Below, in pieces: positions 887 through 18,363 of a stretch of DNA of 64,000 nucleotides. The stretch comes from Desulfovibrionaceae bacterium (lineage in GTDB: Bacteria; Desulfobacterota; Desulfovibrionia; Desulfovibrionales; Desulfovibrionaceae). A program made the position numbers and the translations under genes. The stretch spans positions 1 through 64,000 of the forward strand of contig JADFXV010000006.1 of NCBI GenBank assembly GCA_015233395.1, in the 5' to 3' direction. The notes under the pieces are model-generated. The model did no database searches and was not told the origin of the DNA. It saw only the letters and a program-made list of their open reading frames with translations. Every line of letters begins with the position of its first letter. Position 1 is the first letter of the stretch.

Positions 887-3800
887 CTAGCTCAAAGTCA
901 CCAGGGCGTGATGCTCCCCGCGATCGTCCGTGAGAGGAATGACGCCCCCCGGCCGGCCCGCTGTATCCGGGGCGGCGGACTCGATCGCCACGCCGTCCAG
1001 CGTCACGCGGACCTCTTGCCGCGCAGCGTCGCCAAGGCGCTTGATTTCGATGTGATAGAGGGTCTCGCGAAAGCGGTAATGGATCTTGTACGAATCCCAG
1101 TGGGCCGGAATGCACGGCGCGATGCGCAGCCGGTCCACTTCCAGATGAAGGCCCAGGAGCGTCTCCACGATCAACCGGTACATCCAGCCCGCCGCGCCCG
1201 TGTACCACGTCCAGCCGCCCCGGCCGGCGTGCGGCGGCGCGGCGTAAATATCGGCGCTCATGACGTAGGGCTCGACCTTGTAGCGTTCGATGTCCTGGGG
1301 CCTGCCGCCGTGGCCGATGGGGCTGAGCATGGCGAAGAGTTCCCAGGCGCGCTTGTGGTCGCCAAGTCCAGCAAAGGCCATCGCCGCCCAGATCGCGGCG
1401 TGGGTGTATTGGCCGCCGTTTTCGCGCACCCCGGGCACGTAGCCCTTGATGTACCCGGGCTCGAGGCCTGATTTGTCGAAGGGCGGAGCGAGCAGCGCGA
1501 TGAGTTTCGCGTCGCGGCGCACCAGGCGTTCGTCCACCGCGGCCATGGCCAGGCGGGCCCGAACCGGGTCCCCGCCGCCGGAAAGGACCGCCCAGCTCTG
1601 GCTGATCGAATCGATCTGGCATTCCTCGTTGCCCACGGAGCCCAAGGGGCCGCCGTCGTCGAAATAGGCCCGCCGGTACCAGCCGCCGTCCCAGGCGCCC
1701 GCCTCGATGGCGCCCAGCAAGAGCGCCGCCTGGTCCGAACAGGCAGCGGCGAAGGCTTCGTCGCCGCGTCCCCGGGCCAACTCCGCGAACAGCGCCAGAT
1801 TCCGGTACAGGAACCACCCAAGCCAAACGCTCTCGCCCTTGCCTTCGCGGCCGACGAGATTCATGCCGTCGTTCCAGTCGCCGCAGCCCATCAGCGGCAA
1901 CCCATGCGCCCCGAAGCGCAGGGCGTGCTTGATCGAACGCACGCAATGCTCATAGAGACTCGCCGCTTCGGCCGAACGTTGCGGCTGATCGTAGTACGAC
2001 TCTTCCTTGGGATCGAGTTCGCGGCCTTCGAGGAAAGGCGCCGCTTCGTCCAGCACGCCGGTGTCGCCGGTGGCCGACACATACCGGCAGGCGGCGAACG
2101 GCAGCCACAGGAAGTCGTCGGAGAAATGCGTGCGCACGCCCTGCCCGCCCGGCGGATGCCACCAGTGTTGCACGTCGCCCTGGAGGAATTGGCGCTGCGC
2201 GCAGCGGATCAACTGCTCGCGGGCCAGCCACGGCGCGGCGTGGATCAGCGCCATGGCGTCCTGCAATTGATCGCGGAAACCGTACGCGCCGCCGGACTGA
2301 TAAAACCCGCTGCGGCCCCAAAGCCGGCAGGACAGCGTCTGGTAGACCAGCCAGCCGTTGGCCAGCACGTCCAGGGCCTTGTCCGGCGTCTCCACGTTCA
2401 CCGCGCCGAGCGTCCGGTTCCAGTGTTCCCACACCGTATCGAGGGCCTGCTGCGCGCCGGCCGATCCGCAAAAGCGCGAGACGAAATAGCGCGCTTCGTC
2501 GACGTCCCGGGCCGCGCCGAAGACGAACACGATCTGGCGCTCGACGCCCTCGGCCAGTTCGATCCGGGTCTGGATCGCGGCGCAGGGATCAAGGCCCGCC
2601 CCGGTCTTTCCCGACAACCGCGTGCGGCCCATGGCCGCCGGGTTGGCCAGCGAACCTCCCCGGCCGATGAACTCGGCGCGGTTGCCGGTCAACGTGCGCT
2701 CAAGTTCGCTGACCTGGGCGAAGACCACCCGGCCGCCGCATTCGCGGCCGTAGGCGTTGCGGGCGATGAGCGCCCCGTTGTGCGGATCGATTTCCGTGAC
2801 GATGTGCATCAGATTGGCGTGACGCCACTCGCCCATGACCAGTTCCCAATACCCGGTCAGCGACAGCTTGCGCGGCCGCTTCGAATGGTTGCGCAAGGTC
2901 ACCACCGCGAACTTCACGGGCGAGTCCATGGCCACATAGGTGGACAGAACCGAAGAGACGCCGGCTTCGTAGTGCTCGAACACGCTGTAGCCGAATCCGT
3001 GCCGGCACACGTACCCGGACCGGCCGGGCGCGGGCGACGGCGTCGGCGACCAGAATGCGCCCGTTTCCTCGTCCCGGACAAAAAACGTCTCCCCGCTTGG
3101 GTCGGCCTGCGGATCGTCGTGCCAGGTGGTCAGCCTGAATTCGTGGGCGTTCTCCACCCAGGTATAGGCGCTGCCGGATTCGCTCACGACCGTGCCGATG
3201 TGCGGGCTGGCGATGACGTTGACCCAGGGCGCGGGCGTGGCCTGGCCGGGTTCGAGGGTGACGACGTATTCGCGTCCGTCCGTCGTGAAGCCTCCCGGGC
3301 CGTTGCAGAAAATGCGTTCGCGCTCGGGCAGCGGCTGGACCAGTTCCCAGGCCCGTTTCCGCGACGGCGTGAGTTTGCCCGGCGTAAGCTCCAGAGGCGC
3401 CCGGCGCTGCACCTGTTCAAGCAAGGTCTCGGCGGAGTCGCAAAGCTCCACCCGGGCCACGGTCTGGAACAGAACCCGGTCCTCCTCGGACAATTCCTCG
3501 GCCCGCCGCGGGAAAACCCCGCCCGGCTTGTCGATGACCAGCGCTTCGGAACCGGCGTTGATCAATTCCAGGATCTGGTCCTGCAATTCCGCCCGGTAGC
3601 CCGAGAAATCCTCGTTTAAGATCACCAGGTCCGAGGCGACGCCCTTCATCCGCCAGTAGGCGTGAGCCATAAGCGCCTGTTTGACCAGGTCGAGGCGTTT
3701 TAAGTCGCTTATATGCACCAGCACGATCGGCAGATCGCCCGAGATACCGAAGCGCCAGAGCCCGGGCTGGCCGAGCCGGTTGCGGGCGATGATACTGGGC

Positions 3801-6800
3801 GCGGCGCGGCGCAGGGCGCCGGCGTAAATGACCGAGGCGGCCAGGCGGCCGTAAACCTGGGCGTCGGCTTCGCTCGCGCCCAGGCGCCGCAGCGCTTCCT
3901 GGCTTTGGAACCAGGCCATTTCAAAGGCGCGTTCGACGAAATGCTTGTCTATATATTTGTCGAGCAAGGCCAGGGCCGCTTCGCGCGTGTCCGCGACCCC
4001 GGAGATGATCTGCACGGTCGCCGATGCGTCGGGCGCCAGAGTGACGGCGCGGCGGATGGCCACGATGGGATCGAGCACCGAACCGTCCGTGTTCGACAAT
4101 GACGGCGAAACGCCGGCGTCGAGCGCCGCCGGGTTGGCGAAGGTGCGGCCGCGCCCGAGGAACCGGGCCCGGTCGGTCTCGTAGGACGGCTCGCCGGCGG
4201 CCGCGCCGGGCGCGGCCAGCAGATGAAACATCCACGGCGGCTGTTCCCCGGACGAACGGGGACGGCGCGTGCACAGGATCGCCTGGCGTTCGGGCAGGAT
4301 TTCGGTCTGCACGAACAGGTTGCTGAAGGAGCGATGGGCAAGGTCGGCATTGAGCGGCGCAAGCACCACCTCGGCGTAGCTTGTCACCTCGATGTTGCGG
4401 GCGCCCGACGACAGATTGGTGAGCTTGACGCGGCGGATCTCGACGTCGTCCTCGGGCGAAACGCTGATCTCGGTGTAGGTTTCGATCGCCTGGTCGCGGC
4501 GCCGGTATTCGGCGCGCGCCTGCACGAAGGTCGCTTCGTAGCGTTCGGCCGGACGCAGCGCCGGTTGATGCCCGCTCGACCAGAAACGCCCGGAGCCTAA
4601 GTCGCGGACGTATATGAACGTGCCCCACGAGTCGCAGGCGGCGTCCTCGCGCCAGCGGGTGACCGCCAGGTCGCGCCAGCGGCTGTAGCCGCTGCCGGCA
4701 TTGGTGATCATGACGTGGTAGCGGCCGTTGGACAACAGATGCACTTCGGGCGCCGGCGTATTCGGGTCGGTGAAGGCGCGCATGATCGAGCCCGGTTCCG
4801 CGGCCGTGGTGCGCGAGGCGGCGCTGACTTCGGCGGCGTGCGGGTACAAGGTGGCTCCTTTTTTCGGCACGCGTTCTTGCAAGAGCAGTTCCGTGGCCCG
4901 CGCCAGGGGCGAGGACATGAAGCGGCGCTGCATCGGCCGGCCGTTCAAGGCGAAGTCCAAGGCCAAAAGGCTCATGCCCTGGTGGTGGGCCATAAACGCG
5001 CGCACAACGGCGTAGGGCTTTCCCCTGGGCACGCGCGAGGCAGTGTAATCGACCGACTCGTAAAAGCCGTATGCGCCCAGAAAGCCGCTCTCGGACAACG
5101 TCTGCAAGTTGCGGCAGGCTTGCCGGGGGGCGACCGTCAGCGCCAGGGCGCTGGCGTACGGAGCGATGACCAGATCGTCCCCAAGCCCGCGCTTAAATCC
5201 CATCCCGGGCACGCCAAAGGCGCGGTATTGATAGGTTTGCCAAATATCCAGGGTATTGTAGCAGGACTCGGAAATGCCCCAGGGCACGTCGCGCTGCCGG
5301 CCGTATTCGATCTGTCGCGACACCGCGGCCTTGCAGGTCTGATCCAACAAGGTGTTGTCGTAACTGGGCATGATCAGTTGCGGCATGAGATACTCGAACA
5401 TCGAGCCGCTCCAGGAAATCAAGCTCATTTCGCCGCCGTGGCTGGTCAGCAGGCGCCCGAGCGAGAACCAATGCTTCTGCGGCGCCTGCCCCTGCGCGAT
5501 GAGCAGAAAACTGGCCAGGCGCGCTTCCGAGGCCAAAAGGTCGTAGCAGGACGGGTCGCGGCGACGCTCGTTCACGTCGTAGCCGATGGCCAGCAAATCG
5601 CGCGAGGCGTCGTAGAGAAAATCAAAATCCATTGTCGCCAGTTCGTGGCAACGGCCAATCAAATCGTCGATGATTTGAAGACGCTCCAGCGCCCCCTTGT
5701 TGCGGCAGGCCCCAAGCCCGGCCGCGTCGCCGGACGCGCCCGGGTCCGCCGCTTTCCGCCTGGCCAGCGCCGACAGGGTCGGGACGGCGCCAAAACGCTC
5801 CGGCTCCGGCGTCAGGCAGACCAGGTCGTCTCGCAGCGCCAGAATTTGCCGGTTCAACTCCCGCGTCCAGTATGCCAGTTCCCCGCCGGCGTCGGCATCC
5901 GCCGGCAGTTGGCTGGAAAGCTGCTCGCCGCCGCGCTGCATCGCCGCCAGGGCGCCGAGCGCGTCCGCAAGCGTCCGGGGCTGCCCATCCCGCAAGAGCG
6001 CGTCAAGCTCTTGCCGCAACGACCCGATGCGCCCCGCGAGCTCCGGGACGCGAGCGGCGGGGGCGAGCGCGGCGAGCACCTTCATGGTGTCGGCCAGCCC
6101 CAAAAAGGCGTTCGGCGAGAGCACGGGCGCGTCCTTCAGCTCGGCCAGCCCGGCCTGCAAGGTGAGCAGGCAGCCGGCCAGGTTGCCGCTGTCCACCGTC
6201 GAGACGTATTGCGGCCTAAGCGTCGCAAGCGTGCGCGTGTCGCACCAGTTGTAAAAATGGCCCCGGTAGCGTTCCAGCTTTTCCATCGTGGCCAGCGTAT
6301 TCGCCACCAGCCCAAGCAATTCTCCGGCGCAGACGAAACCGAAATCGTAGGCGGCCAGGGCCGAAAGCAGAGCCATGCCGATATTCGTGGGCGAAGTGCG
6401 CGAGGCTATGGCCGTAGCGGGATATTCCTGAAAGTTGTCCGGCGCGAGCCAATTGTCCCTGGGGCCGGCGAACTCGGCGAAATAGCGCCAGGTTCGCCTG
6501 GCCACCGTCCGTAAAAACGCCTGCTGCCCGGCGCTCAGTTCGCGCGCCGGGGACGTCAGCGGCCGGCTGATCCACCAGGCCGCGGCCGGCGAAGCCAGCC
6601 AGAAAACCAGGACCGGCGCGCACCAGAGCAGTTGGCCGGGCCGGATAATCGCCAAGGCGAAGGCCAGCGACGCCGCCAGAACGGGCGCGATCCACATCTC
6701 CAGGAAAAAATCGCCCGGCGTGCGCCGCGCGTTGCGGCGGGCGTAGGCCGGCGTATGCCAGAGCAGAAGACCGCGCCGGGTGAAAACCATCCGCACGCCC

Positions 6801-9658
6801 GAGCGCAGGATGGCGTCCAGGCAAAGCAGCGCTTCGTAGGGCAAAAAAAGCAGCGGCAGCGCGGCGAGCGCGAGCGGGCGTCCGGCGGAGCCGCCCATCA
6901 GGACAAGGTGCGCCGCCCAACCGCGCCCCCTGGGCTTGCGGATGCATTCGAGCGCGGCCCGGAGCACGGCGGGCGCAAACACCACGGCTGCGATCGCCAG
7001 GGTCCAGGACCAGGCCGCTCCCGGGCCAAACAGCCAACCGCCCGCGAGCAGGGCCAAAAGCGCCGGCTGCGCGAGGCTGCGCCGCAGATTGTCGCAAATT
7101 TTCCAGCGCGATAAAGCCGACAGCGGGTTCGGCTGCCGCTTGGCCGAGGCGGCGCCGGTTCCGGGCGGTCCGGGTTGTCCATCCGGGCCGGGCGCGCTCG
7201 GAAGCAGCCAGCCGGCAAGCTGCCAGTCGCCGCGTATCCAGCGGTGACGCCGGCTGGCCTCCACGGCGTAACTGGCCGGAATCTCCTCGATGAGCTCGAC
7301 ATCGGTCACCAGCGCCGAACGCGCATAGCCGCTTTCCAGCAGATCGTGGCTGAGAATGAGGTTTTCCGGAAAACGGCCGTCCACCGCCCGGCGAAAAGCG
7401 TCCACGTCGTAGATGCCCTTGCCGATGAACGATCCCTCTCCGAAAAGATCTTGATAGACGTCCGAGACTTCGCGCGAATAGGGATCGATGCCGGATTCGC
7501 CGGCGAAGAGTTTCGAGAACAGCGAGCGCCCCGCGCTGACCAGGCCGATCGAGGCGCGCGGCTGCAAAATGGCGTAGCCGTGTTTGACGCGTCCCAGGTC
7601 CGCATCGAACACCGGCCGGTTGAGCGGATGGGCGAAGTTGCCCACCAGCGTGCGCGCCGCGTCGCGGGGAAGCTGCGTGTCGGTGTCCAGGGTGACGACG
7701 TACTTGATCGAAGGTAGGACGGCCCGGTCGCCGGCGATATCCGAGAACGCGTCCGCCCCACTCCCCCTCAGCAGGGCGTTGAACTGTTCGAGCTTGCCGC
7801 GCTTGCGTTCATATCCCATCCACGTCCGTTCGGACTCGTTCCAAATCCGGGGCCGGTGGAACAGATAGAAGATGCACCCCCGCTCCTCCCCGCCCTCCGC
7901 GTCCTTGCGGTAGGTCTCGTTGAGCGCTTCCACGCCCGCGCGAGCGTGTCGCCGCAAGATCTCGTCTTCAGGCTGGACTTGCCCCGGCGCGTCGCGAAAG
8001 TCCGTGAGCAGGGCGAAAAACACGTTCGGATCGCGGTTGCCGAGGTAGCGGATCTCCAGGGCTTCGAGCAGATCGTCGATCTCTTGAGCCGAACCCAGCA
8101 AGGTGGGCACGACCACCATGGTGCGGTGAGCCGGCGGAATGCCGAGCGAAAAATCCAGGCGCGGCAGGGCGCGCGGAGGCAGGGCGAGCGTGACCGCCAA
8201 GTTCGTCAGCGATACGGCCAGCGCCGAGAGGCCGATAGCGCCCGTGGCCGCAAAAAACCAGAGGCGCCAGCCGCCGGAATGAACTCCTCCGGAAACGGAC
8301 AGCATGGCCCACACAGCCAGCGCGGCGATGAGCGCGACGGAGACGAGGTACAAGGCGAGACGGCAATTTTGGCTCGTCCGCGCGGCCCGGGTTTTCAGCG
8401 TCACCCGGCAACCGGCCGCGCGCTCGAGCTCGCGCCGTCCGTCATCGACCAGATAGTAGCCGACATGCGCGGCGCGGTCGTGTACGCCAAGGCGCGAAGC
8501 GGCCTGACGCGCAAGCGCGACGGCCTGGCTCGCCAGGGCGGGTTCGTCGAGCGCGCTTCTTCTGGCCAGATCCTCGACGACATGCCGGTAGCGGTCGCGG
8601 GTGGCGAAATCCTGGAGGGCGTGCGTTGCCGCAGGGTCATCGCGCAAGATCCCATCGACGACGCTTAGCGACTCGACGTAATTTTTCCAGTCCATCGCGC
8701 CGATGAACCGCAGGCTGCCGATGCTGTTGGCGATGGAGATCTGGTTGGCCGCGGCCGTCCGGCCGGCCGCCGCCGACAACTGGGTCGCGGTCACCCCTTG
8801 TTCGACCAGTTTCTGCTCCACCCAGGTCTGGACAAAGGCCATGGCCGGCCCTTGAGCCTGGAGCCGGGAGTAGAATTCCTCGACGAACGGGGCGGTCAGG
8901 GGCACGTCGGCCTTGGCGAACTCGGCAAGCAGATGGATGAGCTGATGCGGTTTTTTTTCGGCCGTCGACAGCATGCGGTCCGCCCACAGACTCGCCGCGT
9001 CGAGCTCCTTGCGCCGGCGGGCGATGCGCGTCCCGATGCGGCGGAGATTTTCCAAGAGCGCCAGTTGCAGCATGATCGGGAAGGCCCACAATTCGCCGAG
9101 TTTGAGCGGCTTGGCGCTTTGGTAGGCGGCGACGAACCTGGTGGCGTTGTCGCTGTCGACCCGGCCGTCCATGTGGGAGATCAATTCCAGGGCCAGATCG
9201 TAGATGCGGGGAAAACCGGCCGAGTGGCCTTCGGCCAGCCTGGGCAACTGCCTGCTGTATCCGCGCGGCAGATGCCGGCGCGCTTGACTTATCTGTTGCT
9301 CGATGAGGTAGAAATTGTCGAGCAGCCAGACTTCGGCCGGCACGATCCGTTGCCCCGGCGCGGCCGCGGCGGTCACGACGTCGTAGGCCGCCAGAAGCAC
9401 CCGTTCGTTGTCGGCCAGACGCGGCAGCAGCCGGTCGGGCCCGGAACGCTTTTCGATCGCGTGCTGGCCCGCCAGCGTCACCGCGTGGCTTTCCAGTTGT
9501 TTGATGCTGTAAAGCTCCGAGCGCAAAAGCTCGGTGTCCCGGTCGTCGCGCGGCGCTGCGCGAGCGCGCGCGGAGAATATGAAGTCTTTGATAAGTATGT
9601 CGCACTCCTCGTTTGAACCCCGGGGCGGGCAGCGCCGGATGCAGCCGGATGCGCTCAA
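887..9658 (-). CDS. ndvB: cyclic beta-1,2-glucan synthase (NdvB/ChvB type)
   Basis: This giant inner-membrane enzyme is about 2,900 residues, normal for the family. It carries an N-terminal soluble region, membrane segments around 425-490 and 860-1000, a GT84 glycosyltransferase core, and a C-terminal GH94 phosphorylase-like module that controls ring size in characterised homologues. Visible motifs include the acidic TLDTDTQLP near residue 660, RHRWIRGDWQ near 806, CGDWNDGMN near 2590 and ENGGQYTHAAIW near 2750. The product would be a periplasmic cyclic glucan made from UDP-glucose, with roles in osmotic adaptation and surface interactions in other bacteria. The start is uncertain. The longest frame begins at a TTG with a poor ribosome site. 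A good GAGGAG lies inside the frame but is followed by ATA. The conserved homology begins only at about residue 44 (LLRSELYSIKQLESHA). No partner exporter gene is adjacent. Confidence 0.93.
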   Translation of the reverse strand: MSASGCIRRCPPRGSNEECDILIKDFIFSARARAAPRDDRDTELLRSELYSIKQLESHAVTLAGQHAIEKRSGPDRLLPRLADNERVLLAAYDVVTAAAAPGQRIVPAEVWLLDNFYLIEQQISQARRHLPRGYSRQLPRLAEGHSAGFPRIYDLALELISHMDGRVDSDNATRFVAAYQSAKPLKLGELWAFPIMLQLALLENLRRIGTRIARRRKELDAASLWADRMLSTAEKKPHQLIHLLAEFAKADVPLTAPFVEEFYSRLQAQGPAMAFVQTWVEQKLVEQGVTATQLSAAAGRTAAANQISIANSIGSLRFIGAMDWKNYVESLSVVDGILRDDPAATHALQDFATRDRYRHVVEDLARRSALDEPALASQAVALARQAASRLGVHDRAAHVGYYLVDDGRRELERAAGCRVTLKTRAARTSQNCRLALYLVSVALIAALAVWAMLSVSGGVHSGGWRLWFFAATGAIGLSALAVSLTNLAVTLALPPRALPRLDFSLGIPPAHRTMVVVPTLLGSAQEIDDLLEALEIRYLGNRDPNVFFALLTDFRDAPGQVQPEDEILRRHARAGVEALNETYRKDAEGGEERGCIFYLFHRPRIWNESERTWMGYERKRGKLEQFNALLRGSGADAFSDIAGDRAVLPSIKYVVTLDTDTQLPRDAARTLVGNFAHPLNRPVFDADLGRVKHGYAILQPRASIGLVSAGRSLFSKLFAGESGIDPYSREVSDVYQDLFGEGSFIGKGIYDVDAFRRAVDGRFPENLILSHDLLESGYARSALVTDVELIEEIPASYAVEASRRHRWIRGDWQLAGWLLPSAPGPDGQPGPPGTGAASAKRQPNPLSALSRWKICDNLRRSLAQPALLALLAGGWLFGPGAAWSWTLAIAAVVFAPAVLRAALECIRKPRGRGWAAHLVLMGGSAGRPLALAALPLLFLPYEALLCLDAILRSGVRMVFTRRGLLLWHTPAYARRNARRTPGDFFLEMWIAPVLAASLAFALAIIRPGQLLWCAPVLVFWLASPAAAWWISRPLTSPARELSAGQQAFLRTVARRTWRYFAEFAGPRDNWLAPDNFQEYPATAIASRTSPTNIGMALLSALAAYDFGFVCAGELLGLVANTLATMEKLERYRGHFYNWCDTRTLATLRPQYVSTVDSGNLAGCLLTLQAGLAELKDAPVLSPNAFLGLADTMKVLAALAPAARVPELAGRIGSLRQELDALLRDGQPRTLADALGALAAMQRGGEQLSSQLPADADAGGELAYWTRELNRQILALRDDLVCLTPEPERFGAVPTLSALARRKAADPGASGDAAGLGACRNKGALERLQIIDDLIGRCHELATMDFDFLYDASRDLLAIGYDVNERRRDPSCYDLLASEARLASFLLIAQGQAPQKHWFSLGRLLTSHGGEMSLISWSGSMFEYLMPQLIMPSYDNTLLDQTCKAAVSRQIEYGRQRDVPWGISESCYNTLDIWQTYQYRAFGVPGMGFKRGLGDDLVIAPYASALALTVAPRQACRNLQTLSESGFLGAYGFYESVDYTASRVPRGKPYAVVRAFMAHHQGMSLLALDFALNGRPMQRRFMSSPLARATELLLQERVPKKGATLYPHAAEVSAASRTTAAEPGSIMRAFTDPNTPAPEVHLLSNGRYHVMITNAGSGYSRWRDLAVTRWREDAACDSWGTFIYVRDLGSGRFWSSGHQPALRPAERYEATFVQARAEYRRRDQAIETYTEISVSPEDDVEIRRVKLTNLSSGARNIEVTSYAEVVLAPLNADLAHRSFSNLFVQTEILPERQAILCTRRPRSSGEQPPWMFHLLAAPGAAAGEPSYETDRARFLGRGRTFANPAALDAGVSPSLSNTDGSVLDPIVAIRRAVTLAPDASATVQIISGVADTREAALALLDKYIDKHFVERAFEMAWFQSQEALRRLGASEADAQVYGRLAASVIYAGALRRAAPSIIARNRLGQPGLWRFGISGDLPIVLVHISDLKRLDLVKQALMAHAYWRMKGVASDLVILNEDFSGYRAELQDQILELINAGSEALVIDKPGGVFPRRAEELSEEDRVLFQTVARVELCDSAETLLEQVQRRAPLELTPGKLTPSRKRAWELVQPLPERERIFCNGPGGFTTDGREYVVTLEPGQATPAPWVNVIASPHIGTVVSESGSAYTWVENAHEFRLTTWHDDPQADPSGETFFVRDEETGAFWSPTPSPAPGRSGYVCRHGFGYSVFEHYEAGVSSVLSTYVAMDSPVKFAVVTLRNHSKRPRKLSLTGYWELVMGEWRHANLMHIVTEIDPHNGALIARNAYGRECGGRVVFAQVSELERTLTGNRAEFIGRGGSLANPAAMGRTRLSGKTGAGLDPCAAIQTRIELAEGVERQIVFVFGAARDVDEARYFVSRFCGSAGAQQALDTVWEHWNRTLGAVNVETPDKALDVLANGWLVYQTLSCRLWGRSGFYQSGGAYGFRDQLQDAMALIHAAPWLAREQLIRCAQRQFLQGDVQHWWHPPGGQGVRTHFSDDFLWLPFAACRYVSATGDTGVLDEAAPFLEGRELDPKEESYYDQPQRSAEAASLYEHCVRSIKHALRFGAHGLPLMGCGDWNDGMNLVGREGKGESVWLGWFLYRNLALFAELARGRGDEAFAAACSDQAALLLGAIEAGAWDGGWYRRAYFDDGGPLGSVGNEECQIDSISQSWAVLSGGGDPVRARLAMAAVDERLVRRDAKLIALLAPPFDKSGLEPGYIKGYVPGVRENGGQYTHAAIWAAMAFAGLGDHKRAWELFAMLSPIGHGGRPQDIERYKVEPYVMSADIYAAPPHAGRGGWTWYTGAAGWMYRLIVETLLGLHLEVDRLRIAPCIPAHWDSYKIHYRFRETLYHIEIKRLGDAARQEVRVTLDGVAIESAAPDTAGRPGGVIPLTDDRGEHHALVTLS

Positions 9659-11051: not shown

Positions 11052-12149
11052 TTATCCGCCGCAGCGGTCGAAAAAATCCAAGGCGGCGTCCGCGGCCCGG
11101 TCGAAATCCACTCCCCCGGTCACTTCAAGCACGGGGCAGCCGTCAAGCAGGGCGAGGTAGGCGTCCCCAGAGACTTCGGAGGAAACTTCGGGGATCGCCG
11201 CCGGATCGTCCAGCGCATAGAACAGTCCCGGGCTTTTCATGAACGCCTCAAGGAGATCCCGGCGCTCGCGCAGCGACACCGCGGCCGCGCGCATGGGAAC
11301 GGCTTCGCGTTTCCAGTTGAGGACGACAAGACCGGCCATGCCCGCCGTCAGCTTGAACCGGCCGGGGCCGAAGCAGGCGTCGATGCTGGCGTCGTACTTG
11401 TGCTCCAGGTCCCAGAGCTCGGCCGGAGAAAGCCTGGAGAAGCGCTCCCAGTCGGCCTGGTCCATCACCGGCTTCAGGCTCGGGTTGTTGAGCACGGTCC
11501 CGGGGTTGACCCGGGGCATCTTGGCCACCCCGGCCATGCGCAGTTCGCCTTGCCGGCGGCTGACCATGAGCCGGTCGTTGCTCACGAAATCCATGCCCCG
11601 GGTCAGAATCTGCAGGGCCAGCGTGGATTTGCCCGCCCCGGAGAAACCGACCAGAGCCAGTCCCTTGCCTTTGCGGGCCACGGCGGCGGCGTGAAAAAGC
11701 AAGGCCCCTTGCTTGAGAACCAGCTCGATATGACGGTTGTTGATGAAATTGACCACCTGGGGGTCGTTGGCCAGACACGGCCCCAGGGCGTAGTTCTCCC
11801 CGCCGCCGAAGGCGAAGACCATGCCCGTCCTGACCTTGTGCACCACGCGGGCGTCGCGCAGATCGGCGTATTCTTCCTTGGGCGTCTTGCCCGGCGCGAG
11901 CGCGGTGGCCGTATAGGACAGGTCCAGGACCAAAGCCGGCGTTTCCACGGCCTTGACCGTGATGTCCGCCCCGCCTTCCCGGCCGAGAAAATCGGCGTAA
12001 TACGCCTTCAGGCGATCGGCGAGTTCCCGGGAATTGGTTTCGACCAGCACCCGGCATTGGTCGAAAACCAGAAACAGCCGGTGAGGCCGGTCGCCAGTCG
12101 CTTTGGCGGCGGCGAGAAGGTCTTTCAGATTGCCGATGGACGCGCTCAT
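11052..12149 (-). CDS. HprK-related kinase B (GAK system)
   Basis: This 365-residue protein has a P-loop GFSGAGKST at 168-176. It follows LLFHAAAVARKGKGLALV, the HprK-like pattern of a His-containing strand before the loop. FVSNDRLMV at 188-196 matches the acidic switch of the HPr kinase fold. It resembles the family named 'HprK-related kinase B' rather than true HprK, and no HPr or PTS gene is nearby. Its substrate is not known for the family. Its start overlaps the end of the ATP-grasp gene by ATGA, indicating translational coupling, so the two probably act on the same substrate. Confidence 0.85.
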   Translation of the reverse strand: MSASIGNLKDLLAAAKATGDRPHRLFLVFDQCRVLVETNSRELADRLKAYYADFLGREGGADITVKAVETPALVLDLSYTATALAPGKTPKEEYADLRDARVVHKVRTGMVFAFGGGENYALGPCLANDPQVVNFINNRHIELVLKQGALLFHAAAVARKGKGLALVGFSGAGKSTLALQILTRGMDFVSNDRLMVSRRQGELRMAGVAKMPRVNPGTVLNNPSLKPVMDQADWERFSRLSPAELWDLEHKYDASIDACFGPGRFKLTAGMAGLVVLNWKREAVPMRAAAVSLRERRDLLEAFMKSPGLFYALDDPAAIPEVSSEVSGDAYLALLDGCPVLEVTGGVDFDRAADAALDFFDRCGG

Positions 12150-13027
12150 ATTTTCTCCAGGACGTAATCGGCGTAGAGGTTTGCGGCGTCGATATCGAGA
12201 GATTCAAGCAGCCCCCGGAAGCCGCCGAAGGCCGAGACCTCGAAGATTTCGGCCCCGGCCGGGGTTTCCACCACGTCCACGCAGGTGAAGGCCATGCCCG
12301 GAAACAGGGCTTGGGCCTTGTGGGCCAGATCCTTGATCTCCCGGGAGGGTTCGAAGGGCGCGTATGTTCCCCCGGTGCGGGTGGTGGTGTCCCAGGAACC
12401 GGCGTCGCCCTTGCGGGCATAGGTGGCCAGGTACTCGCCGCCGAGGAAGGAGACGCCGAGATCCAGGCGTCCGGCCGCATGCCGGATGAGCTTTTGGATG
12501 TACATCACCCTATTGCCCTGGTTCTTGAAGTCCTGGATTTCCTCGGCCGCCTCCGGACCGTCGGCGATGACGGTCATGCCCCTGGCTTTGGAGCCGTACA
12601 AAGGCTTGAACACCGCCTTGCCGTAGTTCGCCACCGCGCTCCTGGCCTCGTCGATGCTTTCGGTGATGACCGTGGCCGGCATCGGAATGCCGCCTTGCCT
12701 GAGCGCCCGGGTGCAGGAGAGGCGGTCGATCAACTGATACATGGAATCCGGATCGGAAAAGACCGGAACACCCCGGCCGTGGATGAAGCGCATGATTTCC
12801 ATGCGGTCCAGGGCGTCGGGGGAATACGAGGGGGCGATCTTCTTGACGATGATCGCGTCGAGCGCGGTCAATTCCACCTCGCCGCAAAAGGCCCGGCCGT
12901 CCTCCAGATCCAGGCGGACCCCGGCCATGTCGATGAAGACGCGCTGGCCGGTTTTTTGCTCCAGGGCGTCTAAAAGCCTCTGCGTCGACCAGCCGTGTGG
13001 AATGCCGACAACTCCGACTCGTTTCAT
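12146..13027 (-). CDS. GAK-system ATP-grasp enzyme (RimK-like)
   Basis: This 293-residue protein has the RimK-type ATP-grasp layout. An N-terminal Rossmann-like region begins MKRVGVVGIPHGWST. The ATP-binding part includes KAVFKPLYGSKARGM at about 135-150 and YIQKLIRHAAGRLDLGVSF at about 176-194. The late acidic/asparagine motif is altered to VETPAGAEIFEVSAFGGF. Family relatives ligate amino acids such as glutamate to protein or small-molecule carboxylates. The substrate of this subgroup is unknown. It is the first gene of a two-gene unit with the HprK-related kinase. The other families usually named with this system (amphi-Trp, CofD-like, XXXCH proteins) are not found next to it. Confidence 0.85.
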   Translation of the reverse strand: MKRVGVVGIPHGWSTQRLLDALEQKTGQRVFIDMAGVRLDLEDGRAFCGEVELTALDAIIVKKIAPSYSPDALDRMEIMRFIHGRGVPVFSDPDSMYQLIDRLSCTRALRQGGIPMPATVITESIDEARSAVANYGKAVFKPLYGSKARGMTVIADGPEAAEEIQDFKNQGNRVMYIQKLIRHAAGRLDLGVSFLGGEYLATYARKGDAGSWDTTTRTGGTYAPFEPSREIKDLAHKAQALFPGMAFTCVDVVETPAGAEIFEVSAFGGFRGLLESLDIDAANLYADYVLEKI

Positions 13028-13127
13028 GATCCGCTCCTTGCTGGTTCCGTATCCTGTCCAGGCAGTGTCAATTCAGAGAATCTTTCAGGCCGGCGGATAT
13101 GGCGCCGTCATCCGGATCCGTAAAATG

Positions 13128-13159
13128 CGCGGAGAGCCTTGCAAGCAAGACTCCCCGCG
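13128..13159 (-). terminator. hairpin after the P-type ATPase gene
   Basis: Arms CGCGGAGAG and CTCCCCGCG pair with one mismatch around an inner CTTGCAAG palindrome, 21 bp past the stop of the minus-strand ATPase gene. The following minus-strand bases (CATTTTAC) hold a short U run. It is a plausible weak terminator. Confidence 0.4.
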
Positions 13160-13179
13160 TTTGCCGCGCGGCGAAAGAT

Positions 13180-15975
13180 TCAGGCCGCGCTCACCCCGAA
13201 GTACTGTTTCTGAGACATGTTGATCTTGCGCACAAGCCAGGTTTTGAGGATCTGCGTCAAGGTCATGTAGCAAAAGAGGATCAGCCCCAGGCGCCACCAA
13301 TAGCCGGAGGGCGGCAGGACCAGCCCCAGGTATTCGGCAAAGGGCGAGAACGGGGACCAGACGCCCGCCACGCAAATGGTCAGGGTGGTCAAGGTCAAGG
13401 CGATGCTCGCCCGGCTCTGGATGAAGGGGACCTTGTCCGTTCGGATCACGTGCACGATGAGCGTCTGGGAGAGCAGAGACTCGACGAACCAGGCGGTCTG
13501 GAACAGCGGCGCGTTATCCCAGCAGTCAAAGACATAGAGCATCAGGAAAAAGGTCGCGTAGTCGAAAATCGAACTGATCGGGCCAAGATACAGGATGTAG
13601 CGTTTGATGTCCTCGATGCGCCAGCGCCTGGGCAATTTCAGGAAGTCCTCGTCCACGTTGTCGGTGGGGATGGCGGTCTGGGAGAAGTCGTACATCAGGT
13701 TGTTGATCAGAATCTGGATGGGCAGCATGGGCAGGAAGGGCAAAAAGGCGCTCGCGCCCAGCACGCTGAACATGTTGCCGAAGTTCGAACTGGCGCCCAT
13801 GCGGATGTATTTGGTGATGTTGCTGAAGACCTTGCGGCCTTCGACCAGCCCCAGCTCCAGCACGGTCAGGCTTTTTTCCAGCAGGATGATGTCGGCCGAC
13901 TCCTTGGCCACGTCCACGGCGCTGTCCACCGAGATGCCCACGTCCGCGCTTTTCAGCGCCGGCGCGTCGTTGATGCCGTCGCCCATGAAGCCGACCACGT
14001 GGCCGTTTTTGCGCAAGGTCGAAACGATCCTTTCCTTCTGCATGGGATCGAGCTTGGCGAAAACGTTATACTTCTCGACCTTCAGGGACAACTCTTCGTC
14101 GCTTAGGGAGTTGATCTCTTCGGAGGTGACGATGTGGCCGTGGTCGCTCAGCCCGACCTGGCGGCAGATGTTGGCCGTGATGATGGCGTTGTCGCCGGTG
14201 AGGATCTTGGGGGTGATGCCCATCGCGACCATCGTCCTGAGCGCCTCGGCGGCGGTCTCCTTGGGCGGATCGAGGAAACCCAGATAGCCCTTGAAGATGA
14301 GCTCGCTTTCGTCGGCCACGCCAAATTCGGTCCGCGAGGAGTCGACTTCCTTGTAGGCCAGGCCCACGACCCGGAAACCGTCCTCGTTGAGATCGGTCAC
14401 CAGCTGCTTGCGTTTGTCGATATGCTTTTCGTTGAGCGGCTTCGGGTCGTCGTCCTTCAGATAGAACGCGCTGTGATCGAAGACCTCCTCGGCCGCGCCC
14501 TTGCAGATGAGCAGGGTCTTGCCGGTTTCGGTGTCCTTGACGACCACGCTCATGCGGCGGCGCTTGAAGTCAAAGGGAATCTCGTCGATTTTGATATATT
14601 TCCCGGTATCGACGCCGGCGTGATTGGCCTCGTGGATCACCGCGTCGTCGATGGAGCTTTTCAGGCCCGTCTGAAAGAAGCTGTTGAGGCCGGCGTACTC
14701 CAGAACGCTTTCGTCCTCTTCGCCGCGCACGTTCAAATGCTTCTGCAGGATGATCTTGTCCTGGGTCAGGGTGCCGGTCTTGTCGGTGCAAAGCACGTCG
14801 ATGGCCCCGAAATTCTGGATCGCCTCCAGGCGCTTGACGATGACCTTCTGCTTGGCCATGGCCATGGCGCCCTTGGAAAGGCAGACCGTCACGACCATGG
14901 GCAGCATTTCCGGAGTCAGGCCCACGGCCACGGCCAAGGCGAACATGAAGGCCTCGGTCCAGTCGCCCTTGAAGAACCCGTTGACGAAAAACACGAAGGG
15001 CACCATGAACGCCATAAAACCCAGCATGAGCATGGTGAACTTCTTGATGCCCTTGTCGAAGTCCGTCAGCGCCCGCTTTTCCGAGAGCTTGGCCGCAATG
15101 CTCCCGAAATAGGTTTTCGCGCCCGTCGCCATGACCAAAGCCAGGCCCGAGCCGGATTCCACGTTGGTGCCCATGAAACACATGCTCGGATCATCCAGCT
15201 TCAATTCCTGCACGTTTTCATCGGGCTCGGCCGCGGCGATCTTCTCGACGGGCATGGCTTCGCCGGTCAAAGTGGCCTGGTTGATGTGCAGATCCTTGCA
15301 CTTGAGCAGCTGCACGTCGGCCGGAACCATGTCCCCGGCCGCAAGTTTGACGATATCGCCCGGCACGACCCCGGCAAGCGGGATCTCCTTGTTCACCCCG
15401 TCGCGCAGGACCGTGGCCGTGGTGTGCACCATGGCCTTGAGCTGGGCCGCGGCCGTGTCGGCCTTGGATTCCTGAACGACCTTGAGCGTCACGCCGATCA
15501 CGGCCATGGAGATGATCACCACGGCCGTGCGCAGATCGTCGGTGACATAGGCCAAGGCCCCAAGCACTAAAAGCAGCAGCACCAGGGGATTTACGGTCGC
15601 CTCCCAGAGCCTTTGCAGGAAGGTGATCTTCTTTTCCTTGATGGTCTGGTTGGGGCCGAAACGTTCGAGCCGCTCCTCGGCCTCTTCGCCGGTCAGGCCT
15701 AAAATGGCCGGCGTTTTCAGTTTGGCCGGCTCGCCCAGATGCCTGGCCAGATCGGATATCTGCCCCCAGAGCGATTCGAGACGTTTGAACATATCCCAGG
15801 AGCTGATGATCTTCTTGGCGGCCAAGGCGGCCATGGAGTGGGCCTGCTGCGCCAAATGCTCCACCTGCCGGGTGAATTCCTCGTCGGGGCTTAAATGGAT
15901 CCCTTTCTCCGGCCCGGGCTCCTGGGCGTCCCCGGCCATGGGCGCTTGCCCCTTGCTGTCGTTGTCGTCAGGCAC
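13180..15975 (-). CDS. mgtA: P-type ATPase, MgtA-like magnesium importer
   Basis: This 931-residue inner-membrane pump has the full P-type set. TLTGEAMPV is the actuator domain (TGE loop). AVGLTPEMLPMVV is the transmembrane signature of the IIIB magnesium class. DKTGTLT is the phosphorylated Asp, near residue 397. GDGINDAPALK is the hinge, and six C-terminal helices follow. The N-terminal 70 residues are hydrophilic and longer than in enteric MgtA. The start is GTG at 15973-15975 with GAGGG 8 nt upstream. The gene is divergent from the molybdopterin oxidoreductase gene across a 303-bp gap that holds a conserved inverted repeat. No PhoPQ genes are in view. Magnesium specificity is inferred from the family. 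Confidence 0.9.
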   Translation of the reverse strand: MPDDNDSKGQAPMAGDAQEPGPEKGIHLSPDEEFTRQVEHLAQQAHSMAALAAKKIISSWDMFKRLESLWGQISDLARHLGEPAKLKTPAILGLTGEEAEERLERFGPNQTIKEKKITFLQRLWEATVNPLVLLLLVLGALAYVTDDLRTAVVIISMAVIGVTLKVVQESKADTAAAQLKAMVHTTATVLRDGVNKEIPLAGVVPGDIVKLAAGDMVPADVQLLKCKDLHINQATLTGEAMPVEKIAAAEPDENVQELKLDDPSMCFMGTNVESGSGLALVMATGAKTYFGSIAAKLSEKRALTDFDKGIKKFTMLMLGFMAFMVPFVFFVNGFFKGDWTEAFMFALAVAVGLTPEMLPMVVTVCLSKGAMAMAKQKVIVKRLEAIQNFGAIDVLCTDKTGTLTQDKIILQKHLNVRGEEDESVLEYAGLNSFFQTGLKSSIDDAVIHEANHAGVDTGKYIKIDEIPFDFKRRRMSVVVKDTETGKTLLICKGAAEEVFDHSAFYLKDDDPKPLNEKHIDKRKQLVTDLNEDGFRVVGLAYKEVDSSRTEFGVADESELIFKGYLGFLDPPKETAAEALRTMVAMGITPKILTGDNAIITANICRQVGLSDHGHIVTSEEINSLSDEELSLKVEKYNVFAKLDPMQKERIVSTLRKNGHVVGFMGDGINDAPALKSADVGISVDSAVDVAKESADIILLEKSLTVLELGLVEGRKVFSNITKYIRMGASSNFGNMFSVLGASAFLPFLPMLPIQILINNLMYDFSQTAIPTDNVDEDFLKLPRRWRIEDIKRYILYLGPISSIFDYATFFLMLYVFDCWDNAPLFQTAWFVESLLSQTLIVHVIRTDKVPFIQSRASIALTLTTLTICVAGVWSPFSPFAEYLGLVLPPSGYWWRLGLILFCYMTLTQILKTWLVRKINMSQKQYFGVSAA

Positions 15976-16062
15976 GATTTGAACCCTCGTTTTGATAAGA
16001 TTTGGCCTGGCCTGGAAAAATCATCCTCTTCAGGCGGCGACAAATCAACGGCCGATATTCAT

Positions 16063-16093
16063 GGGAGCGAAAAGGAAAATACTTTTCGCTCCC
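16063..16093. repeat. GGGAGC inverted repeat, copy 1
   Basis: A perfect 12-bp stem has GGGAGCGAAAAG (16063-16074) and CTTTTCGCTCCC (16082-16093) as arms. The flanks are ATATTCAT on the left and GGTAATAATG on the right, as in other copies. It lies between two divergent genes, so it cannot be a simple end-of-gene terminator here. Confidence 0.75.
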
Positions 16094-16182
16094 GGTAATA
16101 ATGAAAAAAAAACGTGACGAACCGGTGACGGCAACATGGAGATACCGACACCCTCGCGACCGGGGCGGCTGCGGGCCGCTTT

Positions 16183-16211
16183 TTGACAGCCTGCCGCGAT
16201 CGGGCTAAAGT
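16183..16211 (+). promoter_or_regulatory. sigma-70-like promoter for the oxidoreductase gene
   Basis: A consensus -35 TTGACA (16183-16188) is followed by a 17-bp spacer and TAAAGT (16206-16211) as -10. The start codon is about 60 bp downstream of the predicted transcription start. Confidence 0.55.
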
Positions 16212-16278
16212 CGCATCGTAGGCCTTCTCCAAAATCGCCGCTGGGTTCCGCAAGAGATACCCAGGTGGAGTCATCCCC

Positions 16279-18363
16279 ATGACCAGAGAAAACGTTTACA
16301 GCATGTGCGGCATGTGCTCCGTGCGCTGTCCGATCGTGGCCGAAACCGAAAACGGCCGGGTCGTGCGCCTGCAGGGCAACCCGCACGCCCCGGGCGTGGC
16401 GGGGTCGCTGTGCCCCCGGGGCGCGGCCGGCATGGCCCTGTCCTACGACGTGAATCGCCCGAAGGGGCCGCTGATCCGCGCGGGCGAACGCGGCCAGGGC
16501 AAATGGCGCGAGGTCTCCTGGGACGAAGCCCTGGACCATGTGGCCGAAAAACTCGCAGCCGTCACGGCCGCCCACGGGGCGAAAAGCGTCATGTGGTCCG
16601 ACCGGGGCGGGGCGTTCAACGACCTGACCAAGGCCTTCATGCGCGGCCTGGGCTCGCCCAACTACCATACCCACGACAGCGCCTGCGGCCGCAACGTCCA
16701 TCACGCCGCCTTGTCGCTCTTCGGCCTGGACCGGAAGGATCTGGCCCTGGACCTGAAAAACGCCCGCCACGTCGTCCTGCAGACCCGCAACATCTTCGAG
16801 TCGGTCAACGTGGCCGAGGTCAACAACCTGCTCGACGCCATGGACGCCGGCTGCAAGCTCAGTGTCGTCGACATCCGGGCCACGGTCAGCGCCTCCAAGG
16901 CCGACAATTTCTTCCTGATCCGGCCGGGGACGGACTACGCCTTCAACTTGGCCGTCATAAACGTCCTGCTGACGCAGGACCTCTATGACAACGCCTTCGC
17001 GGCCCGGCATATTGACGGACTAGACGCTCTGGCGGCCTTCATCGAGCCGTATACGCCGGTCTGGGCCGAGGCCGAGACCGGGATCGCCGCCGCGCGCATC
17101 GTCGACCTGGCTGAACAGCTGGCCGCTGCCGCGCCGCAAGTCGCTTGGCACCCGGGCTGGATGAGCGCGCGCTACCGCGATTCCTTCCAGGTCGCACACA
17201 CGGCTTACATTATCAATGCCTTACTCGGCTCGGTCGGGGCCAAGGGCGGCCTGGCCATCGCCAATTGCGCGGCGGACGTAGGCCGGCCCGAGCTGGCCGA
17301 ACTTACCGCCCTCTATCCTAAATCCCGGGAGAAGCGCGCTGACGGCGCGGGCGGCGATTTGGCGCATATCGACGCCGGACCGGGGCTTTTCCATCTTGCG
17401 CTGAAAGCCGTGGCCAGCGGCGTCCCTTATCCGGTCAAGGCCTATATCGCCTTCCGCCACGACCCGCTCATGGCCTATCCCGATCCCGGCGAACAGCGCC
17501 GCATCCTGGACAAACTCGACCTGATGGTCGCGGTCACCTTCACCTGGTCCGACACCGCCTGGTTCTCGGACGTGGTGCTGCCGCTGTCTCCCTACCTGGA
17601 GCGCGAATCGATCGTCAGCCTGAAAAAAGGTCCCCGCCCCTCCTTCGTCGTACGCCGCCGGGCCATGCAGCCTGTCCACGACACCCGCGCCGACTGGGAA
17701 ATCATTTCCGGTCTGTCCGGGCGTCTGGGCCTAGACAAGCTCGCATTCAAAAGCATCGAAGACATCTGGGCCTACCAGCTCGCGCCGTCCGGCCTGTCCA
17801 TGGCCGATTTCGCGGCTGCGGGCATGGTCTTTCTCGCCGGCGCGCCGCATTACCGAACTCCGGAAAACCTCGCGTTCAAGACGCCCTCGGGCAAGATCGA
17901 AATCGTGAGCGCCAGGCTTGAAAAGGCCGGGCTGTCCTCCCTTGCGCCCTACCGGCCTCCCCAGGCCCCTCCGGAGGGAGAGTTCCGCCTCGCCTTCGGC
18001 CGCGCCGTTCTGCACACCCAAGGCCATACCGTGGACAACCCCGTCTTGTTCGCCCGGATGCCGGAAAACGTCCTGTGGATCAACGCCGGGCGGGCGGCGG
18101 CGCTCGGCATCGAAAACGGCGGCCTGGCGACGATATCCGGCAAAGGACGCGGCGGCGTCATCCGGGCCTTTGTCACCGAGTTCATCCATCCGGAAGCGGT
18201 CTTCATGGTCCACGGTTTCGGCCACGACCTGCCGGTGGAAGAAAGGGCCAGGGGACGGGGGGTGGCCGACAACGCGCTCATGAACGGCGGGCTCTTCGCT
18301 ACCGATCCCTACGGCGGCGGCGTGGTCATGCAGGAGCATTTCGTCCGGGTGGCCAAGGCCTGA
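16279..18363 (+). CDS. molybdopterin oxidoreductase catalytic subunit, orphan
   Basis: This 694-residue protein of the DMSO-reductase superfamily has an N-terminal [4Fe-4S] motif C10-C13-C17-C45 (CGMCSVRCP ... LCPRG). Central bis-MGD-binding domains and a C-terminal dinucleotide-binding domain (LHTQGHTVDNP at about 576-586) follow. Its pattern is closest to the polysulfide/thiosulfate/arsenate reductase group. HDSACGRNVHH may supply the metal ligand, but this cannot be settled by eye. No Tat signal peptide is seen, so it is probably cytoplasmic, which is unusual for that group. No iron-sulfur or membrane-anchor subunit gene flanks it. The next co-directional gene is an MHS transporter. The true substrate is unknown. 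Confidence 0.8.
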   Translation: MTRENVYSMCGMCSVRCPIVAETENGRVVRLQGNPHAPGVAGSLCPRGAAGMALSYDVNRPKGPLIRAGERGQGKWREVSWDEALDHVAEKLAAVTAAHGAKSVMWSDRGGAFNDLTKAFMRGLGSPNYHTHDSACGRNVHHAALSLFGLDRKDLALDLKNARHVVLQTRNIFESVNVAEVNNLLDAMDAGCKLSVVDIRATVSASKADNFFLIRPGTDYAFNLAVINVLLTQDLYDNAFAARHIDGLDALAAFIEPYTPVWAEAETGIAAARIVDLAEQLAAAAPQVAWHPGWMSARYRDSFQVAHTAYIINALLGSVGAKGGLAIANCAADVGRPELAELTALYPKSREKRADGAGGDLAHIDAGPGLFHLALKAVASGVPYPVKAYIAFRHDPLMAYPDPGEQRRILDKLDLMVAVTFTWSDTAWFSDVVLPLSPYLERESIVSLKKGPRPSFVVRRRAMQPVHDTRADWEIISGLSGRLGLDKLAFKSIEDIWAYQLAPSGLSMADFAAAGMVFLAGAPHYRTPENLAFKTPSGKIEIVSARLEKAGLSSLAPYRPPQAPPEGEFRLAFGRAVLHTQGHTVDNPVLFARMPENVLWINAGRAAALGIENGGLATISGKGRGGVIRAFVTEFIHPEAVFMVHGFGHDLPVEERARGRGVADNALMNGGLFATDPYGGGVVMQEHFVRVAKA

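Follow-up and report, generated by a model that had tools for sequence, protein, structure and literature searches.

The two genes at positions 11052-13027 on the minus strand of the window (the whole stretch of 64,000 nucleotides analysed here) encode a second, diverged set of two GAK enzymes, the kinase and the ATP-grasp enzyme. The source genome (3.37 Mb in 158 contigs, 98.9% complete) also carries a complete GAK operon on another contig, C75. As for function, we regard the chances as evenly balanced that GAK handles phosphate as part of the Pho regulon, in which case the C75 operon would act in trans and the window pair, linked to mgtA, would be a second dose.

The ATP-grasp gene (12146..13027, minus strand; 293 aa) and the kinase gene (11052..12149, minus strand; 365 aa) share an ATGA stop/start overlap at 12146..12149 (minus strand). 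Both the coordinates and the overlap agree with the original prediction, and its family names, GAK ATP-grasp and HprK-related kinase B, are confirmed by the NCBIfam models. The ATP-grasp enzyme scores 408 bits against grasp_GAK (TIGR04356; curated cut-off 300) over residues 3-293, and the kinase, of the HprK/PEPCK P-loop type, scores 485 bits against HprK_rel_B (TIGR04355; curated cut-off 200) over residues 9-359. The two proteins are thus full members of the GAK system of NCBIfam (TIGR04354-TIGR04358), other members of which are present in the same genome; the window differs from that system in holding a second, diverged pair, off the operon and next to mgtA. The ATGA overlap is found in all 16 pairs of the clade to which the window pair belongs and in 58 of the 132 remaining GAK pairs. 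Therefore, the coupling of the kinase and ATP-grasp genes is conserved.

The active site of the kinase is intact. Among 126 non-redundant homologues, the P-loop, H153, the SNDR motif, RxNPGT, ExK and W279 are invariant or nearly so; the Walker A sequence GFSGAGKST (residues 168-176; 11622..11648, minus strand) is so at most of its positions. In SNDR (residues 190-193; 11571..11582, minus strand), N191, D192 and R193 are invariant, and alignment to 1jb1 and 2qmh places the motif on the ADDR of HPr kinase, the first Asp of the pair being Asn in the GAK kinase. The window kinase departs from the usual residue at two conserved positions, with A100 in place of Gly and P130 in place of Asn. The possibility that the pair is a pseudogene was rejected, because every invariant active-site residue is retained.

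The description of this kinase as 'HprK-like' needs some qualification. In a Foldseek search with the AlphaFold model (pLDDT 93.5), the best match is PEP carboxykinase, over the full length (E 9e-9, TM about 0.5), followed by HprK over the core only, and the HPr kinase/phosphorylase model TIGR00679 gives 28.1 bits, far below its cut-off of 240. What the GAK kinase has in common with HPr kinase/phosphorylase is the P-loop core and the region of the ADDR-like motif; it differs in having SNDR for ADDR and a whole-length predicted fold nearer to PEP carboxykinase.

The original prediction had noted that amphi-Trp, CofD and XXXCH genes are absent near the pair, which is correct, and had suggested looking for them elsewhere in the genome. 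They are all present: a CofD-like gene, an XXXCH gene and several amphi-Trp genes lie mostly together on C75, beside a second ATP-grasp gene and a second kinase gene. Two further proteins are encoded in the C75 operon: one joins a PhoU domain to an APH-type phosphotransferase, and the other, of 401 aa, has no Pfam match, while its AlphaFold model (pLDDT 90.7) resembles PHP metal-dependent phosphoesterases. The residues HxH, H, H and DxxH, characteristic of metal sites in PHP proteins, are invariant positions in the latter protein. The eight-gene order XXXCH - PHP - amphiTrp - PhoU/APH - ATP-grasp - kinase - CofD - amphiTrp is strongly conserved in Desulfovibrionales, and most of it also occurs in other Thermodesulfobacteriota, Nitrospinota, Zixibacteria, Planctomycetota, Myxococcota and others. 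At three loci (L127, L175 and L195), the PhoU-APH gene appears as two adjacent ORFs, which suggests either a frameshift or that PhoU and the kinase are made as two proteins there.

The window and C75 copies are 55% (ATP-grasp) and 49% (kinase) identical. In both protein trees, the window pair falls in a clade of 99% support together with genera coded g4 and g7 and genome G230, while the C75 pair lies outside. It is this separate, well-supported position that identifies the window pair as a diverged second enzyme set; a recent duplication of the C75 pair was rejected on the same identities and trees.

Beyond the GAK core, most of what an unbiased clustering of the ORFs next to GAK loci gave falls under phosphate genes, a glycosyltransferase or signalling proteins of a generic kind. 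Genes for PstB, PhoU, PhoH, PstS, PstA, PstC or PiT occur at 35 of 154 loci and in 17 of 75 groups (in the group counts, some genomes stand under two group names because of an overlap between two collections). Representatives of the phosphate genes were confirmed with NCBIfam and Pfam models, PstB, PstA, PstC, PstS and PhoU by NCBIfam. With one to three PstB copies per genome, PstB is found next to GAK in seven of 30 genera, where the expected number of genera is about 0.25. The GAK operon of D. gigas stands directly after PstB and PhoU. Among the other neighbours is a protein of about 820 aa with a C-terminal GT4 glycosyltransferase and an N-terminus that is PHP-like by reading, near GAK in 11 groups and about 20 loci (e.g., L121 2402-4906 and L203 10996-13464). 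The window itself contains a 2923-aa ORF (887-9658) which, by reading, resembles a cyclic beta-glucan synthase.

The PhoB box of D. vulgaris consists of two YGTNAC half-sites with a stated spacer of 4 bp (PMC3333781). With a threshold of at least 9 of 10 and the period set to 11 bp, PhoB-box repeats of this form are present upstream of 41 of 130 GAK units (26 of 71 groups), compared with 2.6% of random stretches. The signal at the GAK loci lies at spacer 5, which gives the 11-bp period known from the classic box, as against the published spacer of 4 bp. In a scan of spacers from 0 to 12, there is a peak at 5 alone, every other spacing giving at most 11 loci. Of the permuted motifs, two that keep the GT/AC content score 28 and 17 loci and two others 3 and 4; the permuted motifs are therefore imperfect, and the spacer scan is the main control. 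The E. coli-style box is only weakly enriched, with 10 of 130 loci reaching at least 11 against a background of 1.7%. The sole perfect match in the 64 kb window, where 0.10 is expected, is the PhoB-box-like direct repeat CGTCACCGGTTCGTCAC at 16114..16130 (minus strand) in the mgtA leader. Two observations on the boxes count against a phosphate-handling role: there is no good box in the 152-bp region directly before the pair, and several GAK operons, including those of C75 and D. gigas, have none either.

The gene with this leader, mgtA (13180..15975, minus strand), encodes a magnesium-translocating P-type ATPase of 931 aa (TIGR01524, 1110 bits against a cut-off of 611). It was claimed earlier that no other gene lies in the unit, a claim that now needs qualification: mgtA is on the same strand as the pair and ends 152 bp upstream of it, with a strong 14-bp-stem hairpin (13128..13159, minus strand) between them. 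This hairpin is a possible terminator or processing site; the segment 13085-13185 (minus strand) folds with -44.8 kcal/mol (z -2.4), and a terminator scan missed the structure, the T-run of which is weak. Co-transcription of mgtA and the pair is therefore possible only, and the hairpin also speaks against assigning the pair to a phosphate system. Scans of the pair region for sigma-70 promoters and terminators gave nothing useful, and a search of window positions 12900-16400 against Rfam gave no match. The mgtA leader at 15976-16113 has an unusually stable fold (z -4.1) with a 12-bp hairpin at 16063-16093 and may be a regulatory leader.

The mgtA gene is found in just 16 of 57 genomes. Both mgtA copies of the source genome adjoin its two GAK loci; under random placement, the chance that both would fall within 10 kb of a GAK locus is about 1e-4. 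In g7, mgtA lies beside GAK in all five genomes that have mgtA in that search. In contrast, it is present but not beside GAK in g2, g4, g19 and g30, which weakens the phosphate-handling interpretation. The window and C75 mgtA genes belong to different subclades, and the label of GAK neighbour requires at least three changes on the tree. The association has therefore probably arisen more than once, and a single ancestral mgtA-GAK cluster is unsupported.

Together, the loci show a recurrent association of GAK with phosphate uptake and PhoB. Should GAK be a phosphate-handling system, its parts might be arranged as follows. Pi and Mg2+ would come in through Pst/PiT and MgtA, respectively. The GAK kinases (one of HprK/PEPCK type, the other an APH-type kinase carrying a PhoU domain) would, like the ATP-grasp enzyme, spend ATP in building or loading a phosphorylated product, perhaps a phosphate reserve made without PPK, and the PHP phosphoesterase and the CofD-like enzyme would remodel this product or free phosphate, with the small amphi-Trp and XXXCH proteins perhaps as carriers or scaffolds. 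The C75 operon would provide the other GAK members in trans, and the mgtA-linked pair would be a second source of the ATP-dependent enzymes, under a control of its own. An enzyme that resembles RimK-type ligases, however, has no obvious part in phosphate storage.

That resemblance is the starting point of an alternative, which we consider doubtful but worth weighing, in which GAK modifies a protein or cofactor: the RimK-type ATP-grasp enzyme would put an amino acid or peptide on a small carrier (the amphi-Trp or XXXCH protein), the kinase would phosphorylate the carrier, and the Pho links would reflect only the timing of need. The best scores of the ATP-grasp enzyme outside its own family are indeed to glutamate ligases (MptN, 143 bits; RimK family, 101 bits), its nearest solved relatives are the LysX, ArgX and RimK ligases, with which it aligns overall, and in most operons there are small amphi-Trp proteins, in many cases alongside an XXXCH protein. 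Nevertheless, though it belongs to the same superfamily as RimK, MptN and LysX, the enzyme falls below the cut-off of every ligase model, and the metal-binding E-x-N motif of RimK-type glutamate ligases is not found in it. In alignments to solved ligases, the position of E-x-N in RimK, LysX and ArgX is taken by E263-V-S265 (12233..12241, minus strand), and S265, in place of the metal-binding Asn, is invariant across 130 non-redundant ATP-grasp homologues. The PhoU-APH kinase, the PHP phosphoesterase and the CofD-like enzyme are also better suited to small-molecule phosphate chemistry than to such modification.

A narrower form of the phosphate-handling reading is unlikely as it stands, namely that GAK is a PPK-independent phosphate-storage pathway making a Mg-bound, highly phosphorylated small molecule such as glucose pentakis(diphosphate), with the window pair as a second, Mg-coupled dose. 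Hensgens et al. are said to have described glucose pentakis(diphosphate) in 1996 in electron-dense granules of Desulfovibrio gigas; a literature search on this compound found no paper in the collection covered. D. gigas has a GAK operon and lacks PPK1. For PPK1, the only polyphosphate kinase considered, all 35 GAK genomes tested were negative and 13 of 20 relatives lacking GAK were positive (Fisher test, 5e-8), a contrast in favour of the broader phosphate-handling reading. The PPK1-positive genomes are almost all from g3, with g12 in addition, so that the comparison is nearly one evolutionary contrast, and this near restriction to one clade also tells against the broader phosphate-handling reading. 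If GAK makes a phosphate reserve, polyphosphate storage by PPK1 would be its functional counterpart, although the protein families are different and the two do not co-occur in the genomes tested. Phosphorus-rich granules that disappear under phosphate limitation are known from D. alaskensis G20 (PMC5193443), an observation on granules and not on GAK.

It is also rather improbable, though worth weighing, that GAK is a phosphate-sensing or signalling module, in which a regulator tuning Pst or PhoR-PhoB would be the phosphorylation target of the PhoU-APH protein and the HprK/PEPCK-type kinase. The PhoU domain within the GAK core and the PstB-PhoU neighbours are in keeping with such a module, as is a gene on contig C127 of the same genome (L018 6256-6981), in which a response-regulator receiver domain is fused to an amphi-Trp domain and which ties the latter domain to signalling. 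Such a module would, however, employ many enzymes of different folds, and the ATP-grasp, CofD and PHP proteins would be left unexplained.

The related genomes bear on the earlier proposal that the pair may be the minimal core of the system. CofD and XXXCH are kept in all ten related genomes, several of which have a dispersed GAK system, and the full operon on C75 has its own kinase and ATP-grasp genes; the members taken as missing have been rearranged, the very outcome that the original prediction had named as telling against its idea, which is therefore not supported. In the clade of the window pair (g4, g7 and G230), the GAK system is broken up, with the remaining members elsewhere in the genomes. 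In g4, the kinase/ATP-grasp pair is followed by peroxiredoxin, phosphotransacetylase and CofD genes, the first two lying between the GAK kinase and CofD at L138, L139 and L151. The g7 arrangement reads amphiTrp - PhoU/APH - ATP-grasp - kinase - mgtA and is accompanied by a divergent PiT phosphate transporter; four g7 loci (L198, L203, L206 and L212) have a cluster PstB-PhoU-kinase-CofD, the kinase of which, flanked by PhoU and CofD, is a second, diverged HprK-B. Given its conservation across the clade, together with the constant ATGA overlap there, the pair is an old, conserved sub-unit that is always accompanied by the rest of GAK in the genome. That it could function by itself, as a minimal system needing no other GAK protein, is very improbable: the window and g4 pairs do stand apart from the PhoU/APH, PHP and XXXCH genes, but in no genome checked does the pair occur alone.

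The GAK families carry names but no function in NCBIfam, and a literature search found no paper mentioning them in the collection covered. The genome context, the PhoB boxes and the absence of PPK1 together turn these names into a concrete hypothesis, that of a phosphate system common to sulfate reducers and several other phyla. If it is true that GAK makes a non-polyphosphate reserve, this would supply a missing piece in the picture of phosphorus storage in these bacteria.
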